Source: Chloroflexota bacterium
Lineage (GTDB): Bacteria; Chloroflexota; Dehalococcoidia; SM23-28-2; RBG-16-64-32
Reading direction: 5' to 3'
Length of the DNA stretch: 37,006 nt
Assembly (NCBI GenBank): GCA_022574655.1
Contig: JACZRQ010000016.1
Location: 1 to 37,006, forward strand
Shown piece by piece: positions 29,843 through 30,967 of the stretch; position 1 is the stretch's first letter; each line of letters starts with the position of its first letter. A program made the position numbers and the translations under genes. The notes under the pieces are model-generated. The model did not search any database. It saw only the letters and a program-made list of their open reading frames with translations, and was not told the DNA's origin.

Positions 29843-30967
29843 CTACTCCGGTAACACGAACAGTGTCGTATCCGGATGATAAGCGGACCAGCCGTACCAT
29901 TCGCTGACGTACGCAACAACGAAGTCGAGCGCGTCTCCCTCTGCCGCGCCTGCCACCCCGGCTCCCGTGATGTTCCACGTCGTGTTGGTTACGTTGTCGC
30001 GGGCGCGGAAGGGGTCGCTGCCAACAAGCTCGAACTGCGCCTCCCGTCCATCAATCACACGGGAGAAGGCGGTAGCGCTGTTGCTCTCGGCATCGTAGAA
30101 GATGACGATAGGCAACTGATCGATGGTGTCATTGACGATGCCGTCCGTCCCGCTCAGTTCGAACAACGGATAGGCCGCGTAGCTCTCTTCGCTGATAACG
30201 CCCAGCACCAACTCCTCCGCCTTCAGCCGATCGTCTCCGTACAGCAAGTCTTCCCCACCTCGGGGGTTTGGCATCCCGACCTCCACGTCACGATAGCGTG
30301 AGCGGAAGGGCGTGTCGTCGGAGAGCACCACTGTGCCTGGATGGAGGTCGCGCCAATCCCCCCAGGTGCTGAGCAGGATGGGAATAAACTCCATCTCGGC
30401 GCCGGTCAGCGGGCCGTCTATCGCTTCTCCGTCAAGATGGGACCACACACTCCCCGTCTCTCGGTCGATCATTACCAGGACGCCTTGCTGTAGGCCGAAA
30501 ACATCGAAGGTATAAGTTTGCCCTTCAATCACGGGGTCGAACCCGACCCCCGAGCTGCAGCGTATTCAGAAGGTGACGAGGATGGGCCTCCCGTCGAATG
30601 AGTCGTTCACGATATGGTGAAACGTCATCATCCGGAGAGGGTAGGCGCGGCTATCGCCATCAATCGTCACACCCAGGACTAGATCGTCGGCCTCAAGGAA
30701 CGTCGCCTCGGCAGGAGTGATGAACTCCGGGGCGTCTAGAGGGACGAACGGGCTGCCACGCTGAAAGCCGGAAGACACCTCATCGTTGTCGCTGATTCCT
30801 GCATCCGCAGCCGGCGACGATGACGGCGGTACGTCAAAAGCGCGCGGAGTCGGCCCCTGATCGTCATCGCTCTCTGACGACCCACAGGCGACTGCTCCCA
30901 ACGCTAGCAGCCCCAACACAAGGACCGCGATGAAAACATTCACCTTTACTCGCCCGTGCGCCTGCAT
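29843..30967 (-). CDS. DUF3179 lipoprotein with in-frame TGA at the conserved first Cys (candidate selenoprotein)
   Basis: One reading frame of 375 codons is interrupted only by TGA at 30568-30566 (residue 134). The upstream 133 residues start with a lipoprotein signal (LLALGAVAC, lipid Cys28) and contain ADDLVLGVTIDGDSRAYPLRMM…GRPILVTF. The downstream 240 residues continue IRCSSGVGFDPVIEGQTYTFDVFGL…RETGSVWSHLDGEAI, all standard DUF3179. In the family as I know it, VTF/VTY is followed by C-P-L-C; here it reads (TGA)-I-R-C. The TGA thus replaces the first Cys of a CxxC, as Sec would (UxxC). A second, Cys-free copy of the unit follows (AEELVLGV near 250, PIVIFYDAES near 286). The alternative is a nonsense-mutated pseudogene. 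DUF3179 function is unknown. Confidence 0.75.
30533..30550 (-). promoter_or_regulatory. SECIS-like hairpin downstream of the in-frame TGA
   Basis: On the minus strand GGGGTCG, loop GGTT, CGACCCC: a perfect 7-bp stem with a GGUU tetraloop. It begins 15 bases after the TGA, and the loop GU falls at bases 27-28 counting the T of TGA as 1. In the E. coli fdhF SECIS the loop GU is at 23-24. Allowing one bulged G, the stem extends by a further C-G pair. The hairpin lies within the coding frame (encoding GVGFDP), as bacterial SECIS elements do. Structure is seen; function is inferred. Confidence 0.5.

Follow-up and report, generated by a model that had tools for sequence, protein, structure and literature searches.

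A DUF3179 lipoprotein gene from a Chloroflexota metagenome bin with an in-frame UGA very probably decoded as selenocysteine

The window analysed here is a stretch of 37,006 nucleotides from a Chloroflexota metagenome bin (contig JACZRQ010000016.1, assembly GCA_022574655.1). On its minus strand, a gene of 374 codons runs from ATG to TAG across positions 29843 to 30967, and contains one in-frame TGA that would be read through. Translation across this codon yields a protein that matches DUF3179 (PF11376) with 226 bits against a cut-off of 27, its residues 77-367 covering positions 7-292 of the 292-position model without a frameshift. Membership of DUF3179 was defined as a score over the Pfam gathering cut-off across most of the model, which places the protein in this family. 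The conserved open frame continues for 240 codons past the TGA. Together, the translation and the Pfam match confirm the first-pass annotation, which had described an otherwise intact 374-residue gene split by a single in-frame TGA. Positions 30884 to 30967 (minus strand) encode a signal peptide with a probable lipobox, read from the sequence as AVA-C28; the equivalent motif in a homologue, L149, is LSG-C. NCBIfam assigns no family to the protein, and a PDB sequence search found no relative of it. Approximately residues 245-370 represent an internal duplication, in which the second half of the protein aligns with the first and the UxxC position has been lost (D-A-E-S).

The TGA (positions 30566 to 30568, minus strand) aligns with an invariant cysteine and would specify selenocysteine 134, the first residue of a U-I-R-C motif. 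All Cys forms of the protein carry cysteine in this column, where it is the first residue of CPLC in relatives. The UGA therefore falls at the site of a redox cysteine, and the alignment agrees with the earlier proposal that it replaces the first Cys of C-P-L-C to give U-x-x-C. The putative resolving partner, Cys137 (30557 to 30559, minus strand), and a histidine 17 residues before the candidate selenocysteine, His117 (30617 to 30619, minus strand), are both invariant in one alignment (A1) and conserved in at least 90% of the sequences of another (A3).

Downstream of the UGA lies a SECIS-like hairpin (30533 to 30550, minus strand), GGGGUCG-GGUU-CGACCCC, with a 7-bp stem that starts 15 nt and a loop that lies 22 nt past the TGA, exactly the perfect hairpin described in the first-pass annotation. 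Published criteria for bacterial SECIS elements (bSECIS) call for a loop of 3-9 nt with a G within its first two positions, a stem of 4-16 bp, a spacing of 16-37 nt and a folding energy of -7.5 kcal/mol or lower. The window hairpin satisfies all of these (GGUU, 7 bp, 22 nt), folding with -12.8 kcal/mol alone and -16.3 kcal/mol when nucleotides 9-42 after the UGA are considered. It resembles the bSECIS consensus in its 7-bp stem, its 4-nt loop starting with GG, its spacing and its energy, yet its sequence differs from every Rfam family, and a search of Rfam returned no match. Perfect 7-bp hairpins whose first two loop positions include a G occur at 0.25% of window positions when spacing is tight, and at 0.84% when the full 16-37 nt range is permitted. 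Against synonymous-codon shuffles, the hairpin of the window gene gives p = 0.02-0.04.

Conservation across the family points in the same direction. The folding of nucleotides 9-42 relative to a synonymous null has a mean z of -1.51 among TGA forms and -0.23 among Cys forms (p = 8e-12), although p-values for the hairpin and for comparisons of TGA with Cys forms are optimistic, since the sequences are related among themselves. Some 40% of TGA forms fall under 0.05 against this null, versus 5.5% of Cys forms, which is about the null rate; Cys versions have no excess of hairpins. Among 19 distinct sequences that share one register, two-sided changes occur in six of the seven stem pairs and 94.7% of cells are paired, and the covariation score is not reached in any of 500 shuffles or when the register is slid. 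The window hairpin sits about 2 bases further on, in a register common to L149, L150 and one of the two L151 copies.

Homologues were obtained by alignment-based search of genome contigs; a single-protein query of the contigs found none. At codon 134, the fetched DUF3179 homologues have TGA in 43 cases and TGC or TGT in 146 well-matching cases, with TAA or TAG in none. Among the best 150 DUF3179 matches listed from a search of the class, 34 contain a TGA, and in 33 it is located at codon 134. Two stop-bearing sequences were rejected as selenocysteine forms, both having Cys at the site: L120, and L142, whose TAG lies 17 codons upstream. Of the homologues that are intact, L149 (Chloroflexi bacterium NC_groundwater_1437) is the closest; this lipoprotein gene has the same TGA, a U-I-K-C-S-S-G motif and a hairpin, GGGGGUCG-GCUU-CGACCCCC, that is near-identical to that of the window. 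The first-pass annotation had suggested seeking other TGA-containing members with conserved hairpins, and L149 is one of these. A further close homologue, L150 (Dehalococcoidia PW3.181; L150:2776-3892), shares the TGA and hairpin; a second TGA at the position of a Trp in L149 and a frameshift further on indicate that it is decayed or contains errors, possibly of assembly. Bacterium HR10 (L151:3016-5807) carries a pair of DUF3179 genes close to each other, each having TGA at this codon, beside an AhpC/thioredoxin-like gene, and in another homologue (L147, G130:C111) Ser (AGT) replaces the first Cys. No gene neighbourhood was evidently conserved around the window gene, L149, L150 and L151.

The source genome, a bin of 2.65 Mb in 156 contigs that is 77% complete, encodes most of the machinery for selenocysteine insertion. 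It contains a tRNA-Sec with a TCA anticodon (76.9 bits), SelA (545 bits) and SelD (370 bits), the last with its own in-frame TGA within SCAG-U-AGK, at a position that we take to be that of the active-site Cys17 of E. coli SelD. The SelD locus (L071:1501-2433; G000:C87:23976-24908) itself appears to encode a selenoprotein, and has a GG-loop hairpin behind its TGA. The machinery that the first-pass annotation suggested looking for is thus present as tRNA-Sec(UCA), SelA and SelD, but SelB was not found in the 77% complete bin, where the best match is EF-Tu. An EF-Tu fragment on contig C108, cut by the contig end, was weighed as SelB and rejected, as it matches EF-Tu. Because several other members of the same taxonomic family (G001, G007 and others) do encode SelB, we read its absence here as incompleteness of the bin, but it is still the main gap in the case. 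More broadly, SelA was detected in 11 of the 12 genomes that carry a TGA form, and in 13 of the 24 that carry nothing but Cys forms (p = 0.026). In G035, a TGA-bearing genome that is 69% complete, neither SelA nor SelB nor tRNA-Sec scores above cut-off.

Several other readings of the TGA need to be weighed against selenocysteine. A nonsense mutation that has made the window gene a young pseudogene would explain a stop within the frame, and the close homologue L150 does show decay or misassembly. However, the same TGA and hairpin are found in the intact L149 gene, the window frame stays open and conserved well beyond the TGA, and random nonsense would not leave TAA and TAG unused at codon 134 across the homologues; a pseudogene is consequently very unlikely. 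Still less credence can be given to a TGC or TGT turned into TGA by sequencing or assembly error: a fragmented metagenome bin invites this suspicion, but TGA recurs at the same codon in independent assemblies from other sources.

Lineage-wide reassignment of TGA to an amino acid would accommodate the in-frame TGA of selD as well. Yet TGA terminates many genes in the window, as the first-pass annotation had argued from several of them; both interrupted genes have the codon exactly at the catalytic Cys position; and tRNA-Sec and SelA are present in the genome. This leaves reassignment with a negligible probability. The same is true of two functional polypeptides, one stopping at the UGA and the other restarting downstream at a GTG (30532). 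A GTG-started ORF of 229 aa is indeed available, but the split would bisect a single predicted domain (residues 74-234), and relatives encode a single chain with Cys at the site.

Selenocysteine at the UxxC site, with a SECIS-type hairpin behind it, is strongly supported by the machinery of the genome, the homologues, the covariation and the lack of TAA or TAG at codon 134. Judged from these sequence comparisons, the seemingly interrupted gene is almost certainly intact, with its internal stop read as selenocysteine. We infer that tRNA-Sec and SelB would decode the UGA under the direction of the hairpin that starts 15 nt past it, and that Sec134 and Cys137 would form a redox pair near the conserved His117. 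The most likely activity of the presumably exported, probably lipid-anchored protein would be that of an extracytoplasmic thiol/selenol oxidoreductase. The product is, in our assessment, very probably an exported DUF3179 selenoprotein, itself probably lipid-anchored, that depends on hairpin-steered UGA decoding and carries a UxxC redox pair. It likely works as a UxxC oxidoreductase, and a redox role for DUF3179 as a whole is plausible.

Exchange between cysteine and selenocysteine appears recurrent in DUF3179 within this Chloroflexota class. On a FastTree phylogeny of 179 proteins, the Sec label requires 11 changes, and branches with good support make at least five of these unavoidable. The window gene groups with L149 and one of the L151 copies in a clade made up entirely of Sec forms (support 98-99). 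U-I-[R/K]-C marks a distinct subclade of predicted DUF3179 selenoproteins. The source genome also contains a Cys paralogue (CPLC) of DUF3179, L046, cut by a contig end; L046 (end of G000:C102) and L047 (end of G000:C87) may be two halves of one Cys-type paralogue.

The predicted fold offers a lead towards function. The AlphaFold model is confident and comprises two beta-rich domains (pLDDT 84.5 overall and 95.7 for domain 1 alone), with low values only at residues 1-67; residues 74-234 fold as one unit. In Foldseek searches with the whole protein and with domain 1, Rieske proteins prevail (probability up to 1.00, TM-score by target about 0.5-0.64, E at least 0.007). The spacing H117-x16-U134-x2-C137 matches the H-x(15-17)-C-x2-H of Rieske [2Fe-2S] domains (PF00355), and the C-P-x-C...F-D of the DUF3179 family resembles the C-P-x-H-G-x-x-F-D of the Rieske domains fetched. 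In contrast, the Rieske ligand pattern C-x-H...C-x-x-H is absent: the window protein has T115-x-H117...U134-x-x-C137, and no iron-sulfur cluster is expected in it, because Thr replaces the first ligand Cys, and Cys the last His. It does not qualify as a Rieske cluster protein on its sequence, and alignment of DUF3179 with Rieske profiles by hhalign (probability 1-2%) was not significant and leaves homology unsupported. In the predicted Rieske-like fold, H117, Sec134 and C137 would occupy cluster-ligand positions. Derivation of the fold from a Rieske domain is possible, and we offer only tentatively, as somewhat doubtful, the idea of DUF3179 as a Rieske-fold domain from which the iron-sulfur cluster has been lost and in which two ligand positions now serve as a selenol/thiol redox pair. 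If true, selenocysteine would occupy the position of a Rieske cluster Cys. A BFVD search with the model matched an uncharacterised Indivirus ILV1 protein (A0A1V0SD44, E 4.9e-9). A genome of the same order, G016 (2.3 Mb), has 57 Rieske-domain matches over many contigs, far above its relatives.

The first-pass annotation had proposed a candidate new selenoprotein family, a claim that does not hold: DUF3179 (PF11376), with UxxC/T, already appears in the 2022 and 2026 catalogues of prokaryotic selenoproteins (PMC9312934, PMC13188914). The window protein is accordingly a well-supported addition to a known family. The DUF3179 selenoprotein is credited there to Zhang and Gladyshev 2007, from an Olavius algarvensis symbiont. 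In the literature covered by a partial search, there was no mention of a DUF3179 selenoprotein in Chloroflexota, nor of a Rieske-like fold. What goes beyond the catalogues is the U-I-[R/K]-C subclade, the recurrent Cys/Sec interchange and the predicted fold. Automated annotation truncates or splits Sec-containing genes such as these, and with 33 of the best 150 matches having TGA at codon 134, many DUF3179 proteins of the class are probably misannotated. DUF3179 provides repeated natural comparisons of Cys and Sec in one protein family, together with a structural lead toward function. The window protein shares with the catalogued DUF3179 selenoproteins its Pfam family and selenocysteine in a UxxC motif, and differs in having U-I-R-C, where U-P-L-C is common, and in coming from a Chloroflexota metagenome-assembled genome, the comparison being with the family as the catalogues describe it.
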